NCBI GenBank assembly: GCA_001797495.1
Contig: MGPS01000073.1
Coordinates: forward strand, 1-47,876
DNA length: 47,876 nucleotides
Reading direction: 5' to 3'
DNA from: Deltaproteobacteria bacterium GWC2_42_11
Lineage (GTDB): Bacteria > Desulfobacterota > GWC2-55-46 > UBA9637 > GWC2-42-11
In this document: positions 5,388-47,644 of the stretch, piece by piece
Numbering within the stretch: position 1 is the stretch's first letter
Layout: every line of letters starts with the position of its first letter
Translations under genes and position numbers: made by a program
Notes under the pieces: generated by a model
What the model was told of the DNA's origin: nothing
Database searches by the model: none
What the model saw: only the letters and a program-made list of their open reading frames with translations

Positions 5388-6329
5388 ATGAAAGGAAAGA
5401 TGTGGTTGTTAGCAACATTGTTGGCTGCGGTCTTTATTGCAGCGCCTATTGCCAATGCCGCTGAAAAGAGGTGCAGGACAGGGAATGAAAAGGTAGAATG
5501 TCCTACCCGTACGGATGAAGAGTTGAAAAAGGCAATAGATAATTTTGAGAAAGAGGCAATGGACATGATGAAAGGCATTGCCGCAAGCACCTACGGTATT
5601 GGAGGTTTTGACTATCTTACAGGGGTTGGAAAGAGGTTTACAAGGGATGCATCTAAAGAGATATCAAAACTTGAAAAGGGACAGAGCGGATATGGCGCAA
5701 CATCTGGGAAGACAGAACTCTGGGCAAGGAAAAAGGATGCAAAGGCATCAGATGATACATTATATAACCAGTGGACAAATAACTGGTCTGCGTCATTCAA
5801 GACAACCCTTGTTCCGGGAGCGGATCCCAATGAAGGGAAACAGTGGTATTATGTATACTGTGTAGGATGTCACGGCTGGCTGCTGCACGGTGATGGCCCT
5901 AATGCAGTATATCTTGACCCAAAGCCAAGGATACTTACAAAAGGTTCATACATGAACAAGAAGACAAATGTGGAACTCTTTGCAACGATAAAAGGCGGCG
6001 GCGGGGCAGTGGATTTATCAGATATAATGCCTGCATGGGGAAATCTTTTACAGGATCAGGACATCTGGAATATTATAGCATGGGTAAGGGCAAATGCAGA
6101 TGCAAAACCGCCTAAAGACATAAATGAGTATCTGAATCCAAAATCTTCTTTTGACCCAAAGTCAAAGGAGAATGCTGTTACGCCTCTGAATGCCGCAAAG
6201 AATGCTGAATTTAAGGACGCACAGGAGTCAGTTGAGGCGCAGTTAGCAGGCAGGGGCGGCAAATTAAAAGGCGGCGGATTTGTTGAAGGTGGTTTAAGAA
6301 AGTCGCCTGAAAAGGTTACAATAAAATAA
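5388..6329 (+). CDS. Secreted mono-heme c-type cytochrome, NosZ-like operon partner
   Basis: ATG 5388 after AAAGGAGG; Sec signal peptide, YCVGCHGWLLHGDGP heme site, MPAWG axial Met region, DIWNIIAWVRA class I cyt c ending. ORF track starts at upstream GTG 5379. Confidence 0.85.
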   Translation: MKGKMWLLATLLAAVFIAAPIANAAEKRCRTGNEKVECPTRTDEELKKAIDNFEKEAMDMMKGIAASTYGIGGFDYLTGVGKRFTRDASKEISKLEKGQSGYGATSGKTELWARKKDAKASDDTLYNQWTNNWSASFKTTLVPGADPNEGKQWYYVYCVGCHGWLLHGDGPNAVYLDPKPRILTKGSYMNKKTNVELFATIKGGGGAVDLSDIMPAWGNLLQDQDIWNIIAWVRANADAKPPKDINEYLNPKSSFDPKSKENAVTPLNAAKNAEFKDAQESVEAQLAGRGGKLKGGGFVEGGLRKSPEKVTIK

Positions 6330-6356
6330 ATCTATAAAATAAGGAGGTGAATAAAA

Positions 6357-8054
6357 ATGCAATTTAGGAAGATTGGTTTTCTAATAGCAGTATGTATAAT
6401 GCTGGCTGCGGTTCCTTTGGCAGTAAATGCTGCTGAAAGAGACTGGCATGTGACAGAGACATCGCCGAATGATGCCCCGCTGCAGGATACAATGCTCATG
6501 TATAATGCCGGTGGAACAGACGGTTCTGTTGCTGTATTTGGTGTCCCGAGTATGAGGACATACAGGCATATCCTTGTGGGTGTTGACCTGCATGAGCCTG
6601 TGTTCAGCGCCAAGGACAATTCAGGTAATAAGAACTTAAATCCTGACGGTAAATTTTTGTATGTTAATGACAAGGCTGCCAATACCATTGGAGTAATCAA
6701 CCTGCAGTTGGGTTCCCTTGAAAGGCTTATTGCACTGCCATTTCCATTCGGTGTTCATCATATATCGTTAAGCAGGGATGGTAAGAGCCTTTATGCAACA
6801 GGTGAACTTACAGGCAAGATGGCAAAGGTGGATATTGCTACAGGCAAGGCACAGGTCATTGACTGGGGTCCTGCGCCAAGCGCACCTGATTATCTTGATG
6901 TAAGCAAACCGCCGAAAAAGGAATTGATATTCTCAGGCAACTACTATCATTCAACAGTCGGTGTATTCCAGCCAAATCCTTTTAAACTTATAAAAGAGAT
7001 ACCAGTTGGAAAAAACCCGCATGGGACAGATGCTGAACCAAAGGGAAGGTATATCCAGGTTGCAGATAAACTCTCTGCAACAATTACAATCATTGATGTG
7101 GACAGTCTTTCTGTAAAAAAGGTTATACCAGCAGGAGCGGGACCGCTCCACAATGTGTTTGACACAAAAGGGAAATATGCTTACACATCCTGCTTTGTTG
7201 CAGACTCTATTGTAAAGACAGATCTGGATAAACTTGAGGTTGTTGACGAATTCCCGGTTCACTATAGGATAGGACACATTTCTATTAGTGCGGATGATAA
7301 GTATGTGTTTGCGCTCAATAAGTTTTCTACAGGTCTTTTCAGCCCCACAGGCATCCGTTGGCCTGTAAATCACGAGATGATTGATGCAAATGAAAAGAGC
7401 CCGACTTATGGCAAGACTCTTAAGATTATCCCTGTTGACGGCGAACCTCATAATGCAAAGGTCATGTTTGCCAATCTGGTTAAAGACTGGACAATGGGTC
7501 AGGCTGGGAAAGGGGGGCTTGTTGATAAGCCGTTAACTGAAATTAGACCCGTACACCTCGGCGGTGCAAAGATTAGTTATCTTCCTGTTGACACCGGCAA
7601 ACCGGGTATTACAGTTGCAAAGGATGGTGTGAAGGAGATAAGAGTAAAGGCATTCAGTTATGGTTATATCCCGAGGCAGATAAGGGTCAACAAGGATGAC
7701 AAAGTCAGGATTATTGTTACAAACATTGATAAGGCATCAGGCATCACAAAGAACCCTGATGTTATCATGGGCTTTACCATCTATGGTCCTTATGCAACAA
7801 GGACAATGCTGCATATACCAAGAGGTGTTTCGCTAATGACAGAGTTTGTCGCAGACTATGCAGGCGAGTATGAAATCTACTGCGAGACATTCTGCGGACC
7901 TCTGCATTTAGAAATGAGAGCGGCATTCTTTGTTGATGACCCGAAGAAAGGTCCTTCAAACCTTGGTGTTGGAGATTATGAAGAGGCTCAGAAGCAGAAG
8001 CAGTTAAATGTCCCTGAAGGGCAGATTACAGCACCAAAGCCAGAGTATCTATAA
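6357..8054 (+). CDS. Divergent NosZ-like protein: Sec signal peptide, beta-propeller, C-terminal CuA-type cupredoxin
   Basis: NPHGTDAEPKGRYIQVADKLSATITIIDV, GPLHNVFDTKGKYAYTSCF, VHYRIGH, GEPHNAKV match NosZ propeller blocks; C-terminal YCETFCGPLHLEM = C-x3-C-x3-H-x2-M CuA motif. Confidence 0.75.
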   Translation: MQFRKIGFLIAVCIMLAAVPLAVNAAERDWHVTETSPNDAPLQDTMLMYNAGGTDGSVAVFGVPSMRTYRHILVGVDLHEPVFSAKDNSGNKNLNPDGKFLYVNDKAANTIGVINLQLGSLERLIALPFPFGVHHISLSRDGKSLYATGELTGKMAKVDIATGKAQVIDWGPAPSAPDYLDVSKPPKKELIFSGNYYHSTVGVFQPNPFKLIKEIPVGKNPHGTDAEPKGRYIQVADKLSATITIIDVDSLSVKKVIPAGAGPLHNVFDTKGKYAYTSCFVADSIVKTDLDKLEVVDEFPVHYRIGHISISADDKYVFALNKFSTGLFSPTGIRWPVNHEMIDANEKSPTYGKTLKIIPVDGEPHNAKVMFANLVKDWTMGQAGKGGLVDKPLTEIRPVHLGGAKISYLPVDTGKPGITVAKDGVKEIRVKAFSYGYIPRQIRVNKDDKVRIIVTNIDKASGITKNPDVIMGFTIYGPYATRTMLHIPRGVSLMTEFVADYAGEYEIYCETFCGPLHLEMRAAFFVDDPKKGPSNLGVGDYEEAQKQKQLNVPEGQITAPKPEYL

Positions 8055-8070: not shown

Positions 8071-8122
8071 TATGTCCCGGCTTTTGTGGGTATTTACCCA
8101 TAAGTCGGGACATATTTTTTTT
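8071..8122 (+). terminator. Rho-independent terminator after NosZ-like gene
   Basis: TATGTCCCG...CGGGACATA outer arms with inner TGGGT/ACCCA, followed by T8. Confidence 0.85.
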
Positions 8123-8209: not shown

Positions 8210-8665
8210 ATGAAAAACATATTAAATTTTTGTGTACTTATGGCAATTGTCTTTATATTTGCAGGCTGCAGTGCGAATGGGAATACTGCAATGACAAAAG
8301 GCATTGAGAAACCTGAAGAGGTTGTGAAGAAATTCTATTCTTATGTCGCAGAAGGCGGACCAACAACATTGAGAGAGGCATATAAACTGATAAGCACCAA
8401 GCACTACAAAATGAACGAAGAGCAGTTTAAGGGGGTTGTTTCCAACTACTCGAAGGACATGAAGGTAAATATAATAAGCAGTGATATTAAAAAAGACCTT
8501 GCTGTTGTTACCATAGAGTACAGCATGCCTTCTGCATTGGGAGGGAGTTTTACCGCGCAGAGCGATATGCATCTTGAACTTGATGCGGCATCAAAGAGTT
8601 GGAAAATAGATTTTACAGGTGAAACCTATGACAATGAAACAGGTCAAACAGCGACTAAATTATAA
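8210..8665 (+). CDS. Small lipoprotein, DUF4878-like (NTF2-like fold suspected)
   Basis: Lipobox IFAGCS; KPEEVVKKFYSYVAEGGPTTLREAYKLIS; WKIDFTGETYDNE. Confidence 0.65.
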   Translation: MKNILNFCVLMAIVFIFAGCSANGNTAMTKGIEKPEEVVKKFYSYVAEGGPTTLREAYKLISTKHYKMNEEQFKGVVSNYSKDMKVNIISSDIKKDLAVVTIEYSMPSALGGSFTAQSDMHLELDAASKSWKIDFTGETYDNETGQTATKL

Positions 8666-40063: not shown

Positions 40064-40663
40064 ATGCAAGTGTACAAAAAAAAGTTTTTTACCTCTTTCC
40101 TGCTGCTGGGTATTTATTGTATGCAGATGTTTTTTTTAACTGCATGCACCAGCGAAAAGAAGAACACGGGTGAAAACCTGCTCGGCATACCCGCACCGGA
40201 TTTCAGGCTTAAAGACATACACGGAGAAGAGGTTGCCATTAGCAAAGTAAAGGGGAAGGTAATCCTTTTAAGGTTCTGGTCAACAAGGTGCGTTTCATGC
40301 AAAGAGGAGATGCCTAAATTGGAAGCAAGTTATAAAAAACTTAAGGAAAAGGGTTTTGAGATACTGGCAGTAAATGTAGAAGACCCTTTGGAAAAGGCTA
40401 TGGATTTTGCCCATGAACTGAATCTTACATATCCAATCCTGATAGATGAAGACCAGAAGGCTGCAAACCAATATAAGGTCTTTGGGGTGCCGACATCGTT
40501 TTTTATAGATAAGGAAGGGGTTGTAAGGGGCAGGGTATTCGGTGAACTGGATGAAAAGGGCATAGAAAATATTGTAGTGCCACTGTTGGAAGGCATTGCC
40601 TTAGCACCGAGGATTAAAGAAGAGAAAAACGAAGAGGTTCATAACCACAGTAATCACCAGTAA
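40064..40663 (+). CDS. TlpA/ResA-like thioredoxin-fold lipoprotein with His-rich tail
   Basis: Lipobox LTACTS; RFWSTRCVSCKEEMPKLEASYKKLKEKGFEILAVN; tail EEVHNHSNHQ. Confidence 0.88.
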   Translation: MQVYKKKFFTSFLLLGIYCMQMFFLTACTSEKKNTGENLLGIPAPDFRLKDIHGEEVAISKVKGKVILLRFWSTRCVSCKEEMPKLEASYKKLKEKGFEILAVNVEDPLEKAMDFAHELNLTYPILIDEDQKAANQYKVFGVPTSFFIDKEGVVRGRVFGELDEKGIENIVVPLLEGIALAPRIKEEKNEEVHNHSNHQ

Positions 40664-40672
40664 GCGGTAGGC

Positions 40673-40747
40673 AAGCGAAAAACGAAAAGCGAAAAACTAA
40701 AAATTAATACACCTTTATTTTACGCCTTTTGCTTTTCACTTTTAACA
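40673..40747. repeat. Palindromic heptad array
   Basis: AAGCGAA AAACGAA AAGCGAA AAACTAA AAATTAA, then TTTATTT TACGCCT TTTGCTT TTCACTT TTAACAG (reverse-complement words). Confidence 0.8.
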
Positions 40748-40759
40748 GGTAACTGATAT

Positions 40760-41143
40760 ATGGTAAAGCGATTTTTCATAATAGCAATACTTGCCGTTAT
40801 TACACTGAATGTGAATTTTATATGCCATAGTGTGCATATGGACAGGCACGGCAGGAGTGGGCATGTGTCATCAACTGACACCTGTCCTATTAAAGGTGCA
40901 TGTCCGCATCACAATAATGACAACCATGAGCATAACGGGCACCATAAAGCAGATAAAGGAACATTTATAAAATGCAGCTGCTCTGCTGATTATACATCAA
41001 CAATTGCATATGAAATTATAATGCAGAACAATAGCATCATTATCATGCCTCAATTTTTTGCATATAACCTTACCGAGAATAAACAAATCTTTAGCAGTAG
41101 AGAACCCATTCCATCAGAAGGACCTCCCAGAATTATCGCCTGA
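40760..41143 (+). CDS. Secreted small His/Cys-rich protein, possible paralogue of the 39514 gene product
   Basis: 127 aa; DTCPIKGACPHHNNDNHEHNGHHKADKGTFIKCSC. Confidence 0.55.
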   Translation: MVKRFFIIAILAVITLNVNFICHSVHMDRHGRSGHVSSTDTCPIKGACPHHNNDNHEHNGHHKADKGTFIKCSCSADYTSTIAYEIIMQNNSIIIMPQFFAYNLTENKQIFSSREPIPSEGPPRIIA

Positions 41144-41173
41144 TTTTTCACAGCCAGTTTCACCCATGAAAAG

Positions 41174-41264
41174 AAATTGTAAATTGAAGATTGGAAATTG
41201 GAAATTTTAAAATGAAAAACCAATCTTGCAATTTATAACTTACAATTTGCATTTTACAATTTGA
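41174..41264. repeat. 13-unit palindromic heptad array
   Basis: AAATTGT AAATTGA AGATTGG AAATTGG AAATTTT AAAATGA AAAACCA ATCTTGC AATTTAT AACTTAC AATTTGC ATTTTAC AATTTGA. Confidence 0.85.
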
Positions 41265-41289
41265 GCGAAGCGAATACAGGAGGTCTTAT

Positions 41290-41517
41290 ATGTTCTACAA
41301 GGCTATCGTAGAGTGCGGCCATATGGGCGCAGGAAACAGTTTTGAGAGGGTCTGGTTTATAAAGGGTGATAACCCTCTTTCTGTCCTTAAAAGGGCAAGG
41401 ATGTTCCCAAGGGTGAAGAAGAAAAACTCCCTTATGAGTATTAAACTGCTCCAGAGGATAAGCAAAGAGGAATATATCTGCGGCACGAATCAAATAAGAT
41501 ATGCTGCAGTGCAGTAA
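41290..41517 (+). CDS. Small conserved-looking basic protein of unknown function
   Basis: 75 aa MFYKAIVECGHMGAGNSFERVWFIKGDNPLSVLKRARMFPRVKKKNS; good RBS (AGGAGG). Confidence 0.55.
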   Translation: MFYKAIVECGHMGAGNSFERVWFIKGDNPLSVLKRARMFPRVKKKNSLMSIKLLQRISKEEYICGTNQIRYAAVQ

Positions 41518-41525
41518 GAATTTTA

Positions 41526-41554
41526 CCCGCACACCTATTGCATAGGTGTGCGGG
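41526..41554 (+). terminator. Strong hairpin CCCGCACACCTAT-TGC-ATAGGTGTGCGGG before the TonB receptor
   Basis: 13-bp perfect stem; only a short T run after it (GATTTT), so terminator or attenuator. Confidence 0.5.
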
Positions 41555-41592
41555 GATTTTCAAAACAAATTTCTAATACAAGAGGATACGAC

Positions 41593-43677
41593 ATGAAAAA
41601 GATATTGCCACTATTTTTTATAATAATATTATTCCCTGTAACAGTCTTTGCTGAAGAAGACACAACAAGATTAGAGGATATTATTGTTACAGGCACAAGG
41701 GAGGCTGAGTCGGCAAAAGAGGTTCCGCAGACAGTCGGCGTTGTGGATGAAAAAACGATACAGGATGTGAAACCATCGCACCCCTCGCAGGTTATGAACA
41801 GGGTGCCGGGCGTTTGGATAAGGGCAACAACAGGAGAGGGGCATGTTACGGCAATCCGCCAGCCTCTTACAACAAACCCTGTCTATCTATATCTTGAAGA
41901 CGGCATACCAATAAGGTCAACGGGATTTTTCAATCATAACGCCCTTTATGAAATCAATGTGCCCGGCGCTGACAGGATAGAGGTTACAAAAGGTCCAGGG
42001 ACTGCATTATACGGCAGCGATGCAATAGGCGGGGCAATAAATGTTATGACAAAGGCGCCCTCTCTTACGCCTGAAATAGAAATAACCCCTGAGACAGGTG
42101 AAAACGGCTGGTATCGCATTCTGGCGACAGGCAGCAATACATGGGGCAGTCATGGTTTTCGTCTTGACTTGAATGATACGCATACGGACGGCTGGCAGGA
42201 TGATACGGAATATGACAGGCAGGCAGCAACACTTCGTTATGATTATGCGCTGGATACAACAACGAGCATAAAGACTGTAGTTGCCTATTCTAAGATTGAT
42301 GGACATGGCGAAGCGCTTGGATTGTCAAAGGCGGATTTTGAAACCAGGCCGTCGTATAGTTACACAACCTTTAATTTTAGAAAGGTTGATGCGTTCAGAT
42401 TTTCTTTTGATATTGAAAAAGAGGTAAATGAGGGGAGAGGGCTTATAAGTATTATCCCGTACTACAGAGATAATGAGATGGAACTCTTTCCGGGATGGGG
42501 AATCTTCCAGTCAGGAAGCAACTACTACGGTTCTCATTATACCACAAAGTTTCAATCTTTCGGACTTCTGGCAAAATATCGGCATGATTTTGAGCCAATG
42601 AGGACTAGATTGGTAGTCGGCGTTGATATTGATTACAGCCCCGGAGATTATTTTGAAAGGAGAATCCAGGCTTATAAAACAGGCGACAAATACACATCTT
42701 ATGCCTATGTCAGCAATACAGATAACAATTATGACTATGATGCGACATTTACAGGGCTCTCGCCGTATATACATACCGAGTTTTCTCCATTTGAAAAAAT
42801 AAGATTCACGCTTGGCGCAAGATACGATGATATGGAATATGATTATGAGACCCGCCTTGCGTCAAATGCAAACAGACCTACAGATACAAAAAAATCCTTC
42901 TCCCATGTAAGCCCGAAGGCAGGATTAACTTATTCATTTACAAAAGATGTCAGCGTATTTGTTTCATACAATAACGGATTCAGGGTGCCTTCAGCAGGCG
43001 ATTTGTTCAAAGGAAATAACGGAACCGCTTCAACAGCGGTGAATCTGAAACCAATAAAGATTGACAGTTATGAAACAGGGATAAAGACAAATCTGTTTGA
43101 TAATCTCGTTACATTTGATGCGTCTGTTTATCTGATGCAAAAAGAGGACGATATTGTTTCATACAAGCCCACCTCTTCAACCACTCAGAGGCTAAATGCA
43201 GGCGAGACAGAGCATAAAGGCATTGAGGTTGCCCTCGGCGTAAAACCGATAAAAGAGGTTGGCTTTGATGTTGCATATTCCTACGCAAAACATACATACG
43301 AAGAATACAAGGTTTCATCAACTATTGATTACAGCGGCAAGGAAATACCTGTTGCGCCAAGGCAGATTATAAACACCCGTTTATACTGTGCGCCTTCTTT
43401 TTTAAATGGCGGCAAGGTTGAGTTGGAATGGATAAGCCTTGGCAAATACTGGCTTGATGACGCAAATACTGAAAAGTATGACGGTCACGATTTATTGAAT
43501 GTCAGGGCATCGTATAATTTCAACAAGTCATGGGAAATCTATGCAAGGGCAATGAATGTTACCGATGAACTGTATGCTGAAAGCGCATCCAAATCATCCG
43601 GCAGCGCTGCCCAATATAACCCGGGCATGCCGCAGACATTCTATGCAGGGATTACTTATCATTGGGGAAGTAAATGA
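41593..43677 (+). CDS. TonB-dependent outer-membrane receptor
   Basis: Start MKKILPLFFII; DIIVTGTREAESAKEVPQTV TonB box/plug, RIEVTKGPGTALYGSDAIGGAINVMTK, C-terminal GITYHWGSK. Confidence 0.95.
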   Translation: MKKILPLFFIIILFPVTVFAEEDTTRLEDIIVTGTREAESAKEVPQTVGVVDEKTIQDVKPSHPSQVMNRVPGVWIRATTGEGHVTAIRQPLTTNPVYLYLEDGIPIRSTGFFNHNALYEINVPGADRIEVTKGPGTALYGSDAIGGAINVMTKAPSLTPEIEITPETGENGWYRILATGSNTWGSHGFRLDLNDTHTDGWQDDTEYDRQAATLRYDYALDTTTSIKTVVAYSKIDGHGEALGLSKADFETRPSYSYTTFNFRKVDAFRFSFDIEKEVNEGRGLISIIPYYRDNEMELFPGWGIFQSGSNYYGSHYTTKFQSFGLLAKYRHDFEPMRTRLVVGVDIDYSPGDYFERRIQAYKTGDKYTSYAYVSNTDNNYDYDATFTGLSPYIHTEFSPFEKIRFTLGARYDDMEYDYETRLASNANRPTDTKKSFSHVSPKAGLTYSFTKDVSVFVSYNNGFRVPSAGDLFKGNNGTASTAVNLKPIKIDSYETGIKTNLFDNLVTFDASVYLMQKEDDIVSYKPTSSTTQRLNAGETEHKGIEVALGVKPIKEVGFDVAYSYAKHTYEEYKVSSTIDYSGKEIPVAPRQIINTRLYCAPSFLNGGKVELEWISLGKYWLDDANTEKYDGHDLLNVRASYNFNKSWEIYARAMNVTDELYAESASKSSGSAAQYNPGMPQTFYAGITYHWGSK

Positions 43678-45038
43678 AAATGCAAAGCGCAAAGTGCAAA
43701 CTCGTAACTCAAACCTTCAGGTTTGAAATTATCAAGGCTAAAGCCTTGAGTTATTTTCTCCTTATAGCGTTCTTATCAGTTTACGCTGATTGCCGGGCTG
43801 AATCCATCTCATTCAGCCCAGCGTTTGGTATCAGCCATCCTGATAAAAAGGTGTCATCACCTTCAATTGCATCTGACAAAAATGGCAGGATATACATAGC
43901 ATGGGCAAGAGAGGATGGAGATGAAGCAAATATATATGTCGCCAGTCTCATTCCCTCTCCCCTTGCCCCTCACCCCCTCCCCCTTTACGGGGGAGGGTCG
44001 GGGTGGGGGTGGGGTGAGGGGGTATTTTCTAATCCAGTTGCAGTCAATCCAAAGGGCATGGGTGCGAACGGCACCCATGCAAACCCTGAAATTGCCGCAG
44101 GCTCAAATAACGAATTGTATGTTCTATGGTCGTCTCCGAGAAAAGATGACGGCGCTGATATTTTATTCACCCGTTCCCTTGACAATGGCAAGACATTTGA
44201 AAAACCTGTTGTTGTAAATGATGCTCAATCGCCTATTTCAAGGGGTTTTGAATCTATTGCTGTCGGCAAGGACGGCATCATCCATATTGTCTGGTTTGAC
44301 GGGAGAGACGGCAAAAAAGACGGCACAACATCAACATATTATTCAAGGTCAACTGATGGCGGCAAAACATTTGATAAAAATATAAAACTGGATGAAAACA
44401 CCTGTCCCTGCTGCAGGGCAGCGATAACGGTTGATGTTCAAGGAAATCTTTACGCCTCATGGAGAAAGGTGTTTAAACCTGTCCCTGCGGACATTAAGCA
44501 GGGAGGGGATATTCGTGAGATTGTTGTTGCATCATCCAGAGACAATGGAAAGACATTTTCAGAGCCTGTTATTGTAAGTGAAGACAAATGGGCGATTGCA
44601 GGATGCCCTCACAGGGGTTCTTCATTAGGAACTGCTCAAAACGGTTTCCTTTACATTACATGGTACACAGAGGGTGCGGAAGGCGTGCCTTCAGTTTATT
44701 TTGCGGTTTCAAAGGATAATGCAAAGACATTTTCAAAAAGAATGCAGGTAAATAGTTCAAAGATGGTATTTCCAGACCACCCGAAATTGACAGTAAGCAG
44801 AGACGGCAAGGTTCTTTTCACATGGGAGGAGACAACGCCTGTATTCAGTAAAATCTTTTTCAGATACTTTGACGGAGAGAAACTTTCAGAGCCGGTTCAA
44901 CTCAATGACGGTGTCCGCAAATCACATGACCCTGTGGTTATAATTGATAAAAACGGAAATATTTTAACTGCATGGTCACAGGATGAGATAAGGTTTACGA
45001 AAACGGTGGTAAAAATAGGCAAAATAGAAAATCCGTGA
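43674..45038 (+). CDS. Secreted sialidase/BNR-repeat-like beta-propeller protein with CPCC motif
   Basis: Repeated SxDxGKTF Asp-box motifs (SLDNGKTFEKP, STDGGKTFDKN, SRDNGKTFSEP); NTCPCCRAAITVDVQGNLYASWRKVF. Confidence 0.8.
   Translation: MKMQSAKCKLVTQTFRFEIIKAKALSYFLLIAFLSVYADCRAESISFSPAFGISHPDKKVSSPSIASDKNGRIYIAWAREDGDEANIYVASLIPSPLAPHPLPLYGGGSGWGWGEGVFSNPVAVNPKGMGANGTHANPEIAAGSNNELYVLWSSPRKDDGADILFTRSLDNGKTFEKPVVVNDAQSPISRGFESIAVGKDGIIHIVWFDGRDGKKDGTTSTYYSRSTDGGKTFDKNIKLDENTCPCCRAAITVDVQGNLYASWRKVFKPVPADIKQGGDIREIVVASSRDNGKTFSEPVIVSEDKWAIAGCPHRGSSLGTAQNGFLYITWYTEGAEGVPSVYFAVSKDNAKTFSKRMQVNSSKMVFPDHPKLTVSRDGKVLFTWEETTPVFSKIFFRYFDGEKLSEPVQLNDGVRKSHDPVVIIDKNGNILTAWSQDEIRFTKTVVKIGKIENP
43681..43749. 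repeat. Heptad array plus two adjacent hairpins at the 5' end of the BNR gene
   Basis: TGCAAAG CGCAAAG TGCAAAC TCGTAAC TCAAACC; then TCAAACCT-TC-AGGTTTGA and TCAAGGCT-AA-AGCCTTGA. Confidence 0.8.
43953..44022. repeat. 70-bp C-rich/G-rich palindromic heptad array in frame inside the BNR gene
   Basis: CCCTCTC CCCTTGC CCCTCAC CCCCTCC CCCTTTA CGGGGGA GGGTCGG GGTGGGG GTGGGGT GAGGGGG; encodes PSPLAPHPLPLYGGGSGWGWGEG. Confidence 0.88.
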
Positions 45039-45098
45039 TGCGTGCGCGTGATGCGTTATACGTAAAAGATTTTGTTTTTTTCACGCTAACGTATAACG
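45034..45098. repeat. Degenerate heptad array with inverted arms CGTTATACGT/ACGTATAACG
   Basis: CGTGATG CGTGCGC GTGATGC GTTATAC GTAAAAG; perfect 10-bp arms at 45054-45063 and 45089-45098. Confidence 0.65.
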
Positions 45099-45118
45099 AC
45101 ATTTTACAGGAGGTTTCA

Positions 45119-45796
45119 ATGTTTGAAATCATAGCAAAAGGCGGTTTTGTGATGCTCCCGCTGATTTTATGCTCTGTCATATCATTCGCAGTCATAATAG
45201 ACAGGGGTTTGTTCTGGCTAAGGCAGAGAAAGGGGATCACTGCAATAGAATTTTTAAAACTCGTTGAGACAGGCAAGGAAAAAGAGGGGATGGAAAAGGC
45301 AAAGGCAATCAAATCATCTTTGATTACAATGCTTGCAGCAGGCATTGAAAATAAAAATTCTTCAGCAGATATTGCAATGGAATCAGTTGCGACAGAAGAG
45401 GTGATTAAGATGAAAAGATACCTTCCTGCAATGGATACAATTATAACCCTTGCGCCTCTGCTCGGACTTCTCGGCACAATAATCGGCATGGTAAGGTCGT
45501 TCGATGTTATGTCTTTGGCAGGGCTTGGACAGCCCCATGCTGTTACAGGAGGCGTTGCAGAGGCGCTGATTGCGACTGCAACAGGACTTGCCGTTGCAAT
45601 CACAACGCTTGTTCCATACAACTTTTTTTTGACAAAGGTTGAGAAGACCGTTGAAGAGATGGAATACTATGCAACAAGACTTGAACTGATTTTAGTCAGA
45701 CAGAAAAAACCTGTCCCTGAACGACCTAATCAGGGGACAGGCATGGCTGTTTCACATGTGACGGAAACTGCGGGCAGTCATCTGCAAAGGGGTTAA
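45119..45796 (+). CDS. exbB: MotA/TolQ/ExbB proton channel protein
   Basis: Start MFEIIAKGGFVMLPLILCSV after AGGAGG; LGLLGTIIGMVRSFDVMS, GGVAEALIATATGLAVAITTLVPYN. Confidence 0.93.
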   Translation: MFEIIAKGGFVMLPLILCSVISFAVIIDRGLFWLRQRKGITAIEFLKLVETGKEKEGMEKAKAIKSSLITMLAAGIENKNSSADIAMESVATEEVIKMKRYLPAMDTIITLAPLLGLLGTIIGMVRSFDVMSLAGLGQPHAVTGGVAEALIATATGLAVAITTLVPYNFFLTKVEKTVEEMEYYATRLELILVRQKKPVPERPNQGTGMAVSHVTETAGSHLQRG

Positions 45797-45798
45797 TT

Positions 45799-46242
45799 AT
45801 GAGGGTAAGGTCATTTATAAAAACAAAGAAAAAGGCTCGTATAGAAATCATCCCGATGATAGACACAATGTTCTTTTTATTGGTCTTTTTTATGATAGCA
45901 ACGCTCTCAATGACTGTTATGAAGGGGATGCCTGTTAATCTGCCGAAGGCTTCTGCTGTCAAGAAAGACATTCAAGAAAATGTAAATGTAACCATAGCAA
46001 AAGATGGCAAGGTATATCTCAATAAAAAAGAGGTGAGCATCCATGAACTGCGCGGCGCGCTTGTTGCAGAGGCTTCAAAAGACCCTGAAACGCTTGTGAT
46101 TATCAATGCTGATGAAGAGGTCATGCACGGCAGGGTTGTGGAGGTAATGGATGAAATCAAACTTTCCGGCGTAACAAAACTTGCGATAGCAACAAAGGAA
46201 AAAACTAAACAGGAGGATGATAAAAATGAAATTCTTGATTAA
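45799..46242 (+). CDS. exbD: ExbD/TolR biopolymer transport protein
   Basis: IEIIPMIDTMFFLLVFFMIATLSM; VNLPKA; HGRVVEVMDEIKLSGVTKLAIAT. Confidence 0.93.
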   Translation: MRVRSFIKTKKKARIEIIPMIDTMFFLLVFFMIATLSMTVMKGMPVNLPKASAVKKDIQENVNVTIAKDGKVYLNKKEVSIHELRGALVAEASKDPETLVIINADEEVMHGRVVEVMDEIKLSGVTKLAIATKEKTKQEDDKNEILD

Positions 46243-46708
46243 ACAAATAGTACCCGTAACGCTATTTTTGGCGGTAATGCACTCTGCATTCCAAATATCC
46301 TTCGCTGCTGACAGACACGAAATGACACATGACAAGATACAGCAGAAACAGAGCGGCGATTCTGATAAAAGGGTGTCTCTTAATCTGCCTCCAATGATGA
46401 AAGAACATCAGTTGCAGAACATGAGAAATCATCTGCAGGCAGTGCAGGAAATAGTAAATTATCTAAGCGCCGGCAATTTTGACGCCGCATCAAGAACAGC
46501 CCGTGAAAAATTGGGGTTAACAGAAGATATGAAAAAGATGTGCAATATGTTTGAAAATGAAGGGTTTAGAAAAATGGGATTTGCTTTTCATGAAAGCGGT
46601 GACAGACTCGGTGATGTTCTGAAGGAAAAAGATTTAAAGAAATCTCTCTCTTCTTTGAGCAGCATGCTTCAAAAATGCGTGGCATGTCATGCCACATACA
46701 AGCAGTAA
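46226..46708 (+). CDS. Cytochrome c'-like secreted protein
   Basis: Signal peptide, helical body, C-terminal KCVACHATYKQ heme motif; overlaps the exbD end. Confidence 0.7.
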   Translation: MKFLIKQIVPVTLFLAVMHSAFQISFAADRHEMTHDKIQQKQSGDSDKRVSLNLPPMMKEHQLQNMRNHLQAVQEIVNYLSAGNFDAASRTAREKLGLTEDMKKMCNMFENEGFRKMGFAFHESGDRLGDVLKEKDLKKSLSSLSSMLQKCVACHATYKQ

Positions 46709-46759
46709 ACACAGACAGGCGGCGAGGTTTGGGTTGACAATATTTCTGGAGAAAGCAAT

Positions 46760-47644
46760 ATGCAGAGTAACAATTTAAAGTTGCCTCTTATTATATCCAT
46801 TATGTTTCACAGCGCTATGCTGTTTTCCATTGCAGCATATCTGCCAAATGTAAAAGAGACTGTAATGGATATAACAGCCGTTGAGGTTCTAAAGATACCT
46901 GTAGAAAAAGAGGTTGTTGCAGAGCCTCAGACAGAGGAAAAGAGAGAAAAGCCCAAACCTCTGCCTGAAAGAAAGATAGAAAAGGTTGAAGAAATAAAAA
47001 AGGAAATTCCTCCTGTTGAAAAAAGGGAAGAGGTTAAGTCGCAGGAGGCAAAGGTTGAGCAGCCTCCACTGCCCTCTGTTGAAAAAAAGGAAGAGCCTGT
47101 TGAAAAAGCGAATACTGCCAAAAATGTTGAACTGCCTCCTCCGTTTGCAAAACCTGCTGTTGAAAGCAGCAATATTAAAACAGCAGATACTCTTAAAAGC
47201 GCTGATACAGTTATTAAGGCAGCGGATGGCGTAAGCCGCATAAATGAAGCCCCGGTAGTTTCAACAAATAAACAGATTGCAGCAGAAGCAAAACCGCAGG
47301 AGCATGCAGGCTCAAAATACGGGCTTGAAGGCGGGACAGGCAAGGGCACAGAGGATGAACTTAAGTTATTCAAAACAATGGTCAGGACAAAGATAGAGAG
47401 GGCAAAGTTCTATCCAAGATGGGCAAGGCAGAGGGGTTATGAAGGAGTTGTCGGAGTAAAATTCACTATCCAGCCTGACGGCAGCGTGAACGATGTAAAG
47501 GTTACCAAACCCTGCCACTGCGATGTTTTGAACAAGGCAGCATGCGAGGCAATTATGAAGGCAGCGCCTTTCAACCCGAGACCTGATGAATTAAATGGCA
47601 AAGAAATGGCAATGGAGATAGATATTAGTTTTAAGTTGGAGTGA
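46760..47644 (+). CDS. tonB: TonB-family energy transducer
   Basis: N-terminal TM, Pro/Glu/Lys-rich linker, C-terminal YPRWARQRGYEGVVGVKFTIQPDGSVNDVKV..AAPFNPRPDEL. Confidence 0.93.
   Translation: MQSNNLKLPLIISIMFHSAMLFSIAAYLPNVKETVMDITAVEVLKIPVEKEVVAEPQTEEKREKPKPLPERKIEKVEEIKKEIPPVEKREEVKSQEAKVEQPPLPSVEKKEEPVEKANTAKNVELPPPFAKPAVESSNIKTADTLKSADTVIKAADGVSRINEAPVVSTNKQIAAEAKPQEHAGSKYGLEGGTGKGTEDELKLFKTMVRTKIERAKFYPRWARQRGYEGVVGVKFTIQPDGSVNDVKVTKPCHCDVLNKAACEAIMKAAPFNPRPDELNGKEMAMEIDISFKLE

Follow-up and report, generated by a model that had tools for sequence, protein, structure and literature searches.

The enzymatic sink known for N2O, a greenhouse gas, is nitrous oxide reductase (NosZ). Canonical enzymes hold their CuZ site with seven histidines, two of them consecutive on propeller blade II and one each on blades I, III, V, VI and VII, with none on blade IV, and in P. 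stutzeri six of the seven single His-to-Ala changes at CuZ abolish metalation while the CuA ligand His583 is a flipping ligand and a proposed electron-transfer gate (PMC11573801). A NosZ-like clade that combines a lactonase propeller with a cupredoxin domain has been described from groundwater Nitrospirota, where it is transcribed and where a MAG with this lactonase-type enzyme (L-NosZ) bears nosDFLYX (PMC11033732). A passage of PMC13274427 lists clade III NosZ beside clades I and II as acetylene-inhibited N2O reducers, and the source that it cites for clade III, He et al. 2025 (Nature 646:152), is given there as reporting N2O reduction.

Comparing these systems with the window (the whole stretch of 47,876 nucleotides that was analysed), we confirmed two tandem open reading frames on the forward strand, 5388-6329 (313 aa) followed by 6357-8054 (565 aa), each preceded by a strong AGGAGG-type ribosome site. 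The first encodes a c-type cytochrome with a Sec-type signal peptide, a Cytochrome_CBB3 match (5.5e-10) and a single CxxCH at residue 158, in agreement with the initial annotation of an upstream mono-haem cytochrome, and its homologues lie within or near the L-NosZ clusters of relatives (54-80% identity, 10 sequences). The second comprises a 7-bladed propeller (residues about 44-400) and a cupredoxin/CuA domain (residues about 420-528), and its signal peptide looks Sec-type and not Tat-type, as had been annotated, with the twin Arg absent when read by eye. Downstream on the same strand, a hairpin and T run spanning 8071-8122 (-28.7 kcal/mol, z = -8.5), absent from the pattern-scan output, form a likely terminator, which is followed by a small lipoprotein gene (8210-8665, 151 aa, lipobox Cys20) that adjoins L-NosZ in most relatives' clusters at 43-56% identity; the lipoprotein carries no Cys/His metal motif except its lipobox Cys. 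The two genes very probably encode a clade III N2O reductase, its activity predicted, together with the cytochrome c that likely serves as its electron donor.

By its sequence, the 565-aa protein belongs to clade III, the lactonase-type NosZ, an already published and recently recognised third family. The NCBIfam L-NosZ model (NF052460, "clade III lactonase-type nitrous-oxide reductase") matched it at 701.3 bits (5e-211) over the full model (1-480), a minimal margin above the curated equivalog cut-off of 700 bits, whereas the clade I and clade II models (TIGR04244 and TIGR04246) reached 139.9 and 185.7 bits against a cut-off of 625. Several close relatives score under the 700-bit cut-off (658-696), and full-length L-NosZ relatives as a set span 658-786 bits with the next NosZ at about 135 bits; given this gap, the borderline score reflects the placement of the cut-off and not doubt about the clade. 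A tree built from L-NosZ relatives and canonical NosZ, and without the biochemically tested clade III members, split L-NosZ from clades I and II with support of 100/100. The distinct NosZ-like lineage of the initial annotation thus does stand apart from clades I and II, but it is not a lineage of its own, being the named clade III (NF052460). Scanned viral contigs yielded no further L-NosZ relatives, and the best matches to the protein in a plasmid collection were canonical NosZ.

Pfam searches opened another reading of this protein, with YNCE and Lactonase (1.3e-13) as the top matches over cut-off and the cupredoxin model matching weakly, under cut-off, even though the CuA motif is largely intact. 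That it is a lactonase or YncE-like propeller fused to a cupredoxin and unrelated to N2O is nonetheless extremely improbable, as nos_propeller is also over its cut-off, the L-NosZ model is matched at full length, and the aligned ligand pattern contradicts it. The best PDB matches by sequence (8e-28) and by fold (50/50 of the best Foldseek matches of a predicted model with pLDDT 54) are N2O reductases, and the over-cut-off profile matches together with this sequence match argue that the similarity is not due to chance. Built with eight sequences, the AlphaFold model has a pLDDT too low for His-His distances or ligand geometry to be read from it. A lactonase-like propeller joined to a cupredoxin domain is itself a feature of clade III, which the window protein shares along with Sec-type export and the invariant ligand set common to 21 aligned relatives. 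Compared with canonical clade I/II enzymes (PDB 3sbp, 1fwx, 9f8x), L-NosZ has the same fold but only about 27-31% identity over aligned columns.

Evaluating the CuZ site, we found six of the seven histidines at canonical positions, and these six are retained in 21/21 aligned L-NosZ sequences. The blade II pair His129-His130 of P. stutzeri is matched by His79-Glu80 (6591-6596, motif DLHE), such that the pair reads H-E in 21/21 L-NosZ and H-H in 6/6 canonical sequences. At 6756-6761 (motif GVHHISL), His134 is the equivalent of CuZ His178 and is followed by an extra adjacent histidine, His135, which is present in 21/21 L-NosZ while the six canonical sequences have G, V, A or S and never His. The remaining equivalents, His222 (7020-7022), His265 (7149-7151), His307 (7275-7277) and His365 (7449-7451), are invariant across L-NosZ and canonical NosZ, as are the second-sphere Lys322 and Glu363, and the blade IV position in L-NosZ is an invariant D178 (21 sequences). 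Since most single histidine replacements abolish metalation in P. stutzeri (PMC11573801), the loss of His130 needs compensation, and we hypothesize that His135 takes over for it, which would keep the number of CuZ histidines at seven. Two other histidines of L-NosZ, His198 (6948-6950) and His400 (7554-7556), are invariant and lie outside the canonical ligand positions.

The CuA site shows a similar mixture of retained and exchanged positions. The motif C509-E-T-F-C513-GPL-H517-LE-M520 (7881-7916, forward strand), within the block YCETFCGPLHLEM at residues 508-520, keeps the Cys, Cys, His and Met of canonical enzymes invariant, with T511 and not H511 in about half of the sequences, the window's among them. 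The second CuA histidine of canonical NosZ is missing from the window protein: at the place of His583 stands Met471 (7767-7769, motif DVIMGF), and this position is Met in 20/20 L-NosZ and His in 6/6 canonical sequences, so that Met471 probably fills the usual His place in a binuclear CuA. Phe512, Glu363 and Lys322, which correspond to F621, E492 and K454 and form the conduit between CuA and CuZ, are invariant and common to both groups. Loss of Ser550, the partner of the His583 gate, was dropped as a change, as the Ser is not conserved in canonical sequences either. The motifs and codons quoted in the initial annotation (DLHE, GVHHISL, the Met of DVIMGF and the CuA block) were thus exact, and the alignment bears out that the seven CuZ histidines and the CuA histidine are not all at equivalent positions; the altered ligands are real, but they are family-wide and not special to the window protein.

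Genome-wide profile searches with models for NosL and NosD gave no NosL match and no full-length NosD in the window's genome, where NosD scores reached 21 bits at best (cut-off 300), whereas the same searches in two genomes with canonical NosZ returned NosD at 441 and 386 bits and were positive for NosL. The reported absence of NosD/F/Y/L from the ~10 kb around the gene therefore holds and extends to the whole genome for NosL and full-length NosD, although a different conserved accessory set is encoded elsewhere in the genome. Such an absence, together with the replacement in all L-NosZ examined of two His positions found in the 6 canonical sequences, could be taken to mean that this is a NosZ-derived cuproprotein that has moved past N2O reduction (a copper store, a copper sensor or a different reductase), with Glu80 and Met471 as marks of lost chemistry. 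We hold this to be improbable: the six CuZ histidines, His135, the CuA Cys/Cys/His/Met and the Phe-Glu-Lys conduit are all invariant even though identity to the window protein falls to about 61% among aligned L-NosZ, dedicated electron-transfer genes co-occur with L-NosZ, and N2O reduction has been reported for the family (He et al. 2025, as cited in PMC13274427). The same invariance and report leave the different substrate suggested at first unsupported, and a clade III N2O reductase is the reading that we carry forward.

To the accessory set belongs a cluster that in relatives is headed by L-NosZ and contains, with some variation, the lipoprotein, a cytochrome b, a cytochrome c and a C-terminal part of cytochrome b, then two Vgb-like propellers, a dihaem c, a small c, the homologue of the window's cytochrome (large c) and a small CxxCH protein (c4), as well as an ABC ATPase, an ABC-2 permease and a GldG-like protein. 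In the window's family this cluster is split into three islands, of which the window holds large c, L-NosZ and the lipoprotein, while one further contig of the same genome (C3) holds the cytochrome c, the cytochrome b, its C-terminal part and both propellers, and another (C14) holds the dihaem c, small c, c4 and the ABC/GldG genes. In five clusters a NosD domain (PF05048) is joined to the cytochrome c that is encoded between the two b genes, and the window's family retains the cytochrome part alone. These fusions, with a NosD-type beta-helix and a C-terminal cytochrome c, were seen at locus L084 (9583-11046) and locus L040 (4708-6045), and also at L085, L089 and L061. A small UspA-like universal stress protein, read from the sequence (L103, 5350-5817), immediately precedes the cytochrome/propeller island in the window's family.

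The ATPase, the permease and the GldG-like protein match the GldA, GldF and GldG models (TIGR03522, TIGR03518 and TIGR03521), but all three fall under the curated cut-offs, and the genes are linked to L-NosZ and not to gliding genes. The set also resembles the NosD/NosF/NosY complex in its ABC ATPase and ABC-2 permease and in the five NosD-domain fusions, but differs in that the clusters are without a full-length NosD, have two Vgb-like propellers and GldG instead, and in the window's family miss the NosD half altogether. A literature search found no paper containing both virginiamycin B lyase and nosZ. In this genome another gene set appears to take the place of the canonical assembly genes, and we hypothesize that the GldA/F/G-like ABC set and the Vgb-like propellers stand in for NosDFYL in maturation.

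The association of this gene set with L-NosZ was evaluated across 65 genomes of the class, 16 of which carry L-NosZ at E <= 1e-60, with a seventeenth (G700), at first an apparent exception, preserving the C-terminal end of L-NosZ at a contig edge. VgbB occurred in 17/17 genomes with L-NosZ and in 0/48 without (Fisher p = 5e-16, a value that ignores the relatedness of the genomes and so overstates their independence), and c4 in 15/17 versus 0/48 (both L-NosZ genomes that miss it are incomplete or fragmented assemblies). A genome of the same order that is 100% complete (G055) is without L-NosZ, VgbB and c4, and its search for the GldG-like protein gave no match. Separately, contig C24 of the window's own genome (L136, 5531-9288) encodes two haem-copper oxidase subunit I-like proteins in tandem (502 and 492 aa) together with a CuA subunit, and SCO-like proteins and a UbiA/CtaB-like gene, read from sequence, lie close by; the pair scores far under the oxidase cut-offs and is possibly an unusual oxidase or an NO reductase. 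Haem-copper subunit matches were found in the searched L-NosZ relatives, and G055 had one short match only.

Differences of this kind also bear on how far function can be transferred from the demonstrated clade III enzymes. The window's order might be a sister subclade of them, with its own maturation, possibly another range of kinetics or pH, and only partial functional transfer: scores straddle the equivalog cut-off, T511 replaces H511 in about half of the sequences including the window's, and one published L-NosZ genome has nosDFLYX (PMC11033732) while the window's genome is without NosL and full-length NosD. This seems unlikely, though not negligible, given that the catalytic positions are all identical to those of higher-scoring members (up to 786 bits) and that one accessory cluster is common to members above and below the 700-bit cut-off. 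Tentative, and less likely than not, is a combined proposal for L-NosZ in which the seventh CuZ ligand would have moved from blade II to blade III, a Met would stand for the CuA gate His, and NosDFYL would be replaced, for maturation and electron feed, by a dedicated module made up of the GldA/F/G-like ABC system, the paired Vgb-like propellers, haem proteins and an optional NosD-cytochrome c fusion.

For the gene pair as a clade III reductase with its donor, we propose that Sec would export the reductase to the periplasm, where it presumably forms a dimer with CuA in the cupredoxin domain (Cys509, Cys513, His517, Met520 and probably Met471) and a CuZ-type cluster at the propeller hub (His79, His134, His222, His265, His307, His365 and, as a hypothesis, His135). 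Quinol would then feed electrons into a cytochrome b/c set, whose genes lie elsewhere in the genome, and from there they would pass to cytochrome c and on through CuA and CuZ to N2O, to yield N2 and water. At the far end of the window, a thioredoxin-like protein, a TonB-dependent receptor, a BNR/PDIAV-like protein and ExbB- and TonB-like proteins follow in a row (40064-47644) and make up a TonB uptake locus. Its receptor was set aside as a NosA-like copper receptor, as its matches were to siderophore/haem-type models, under cut-off, with no copper-receptor model among the 25 matches listed.

Three features are worth following: the proposed histidine relocation, the Met at CuA and the accessory module that may substitute for NosDFYL. 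If the relocation is true, L-NosZ would represent a natural second way to build CuZ, at a site where single replacements in the canonical enzyme mostly abolish metalation (PMC11573801), and the Met would bear on whether the CuA His gate is essential. Genes found together with L-NosZ supply named maturation candidates for clade III enzymes, open to direct testing on the strength of the 65-genome association.
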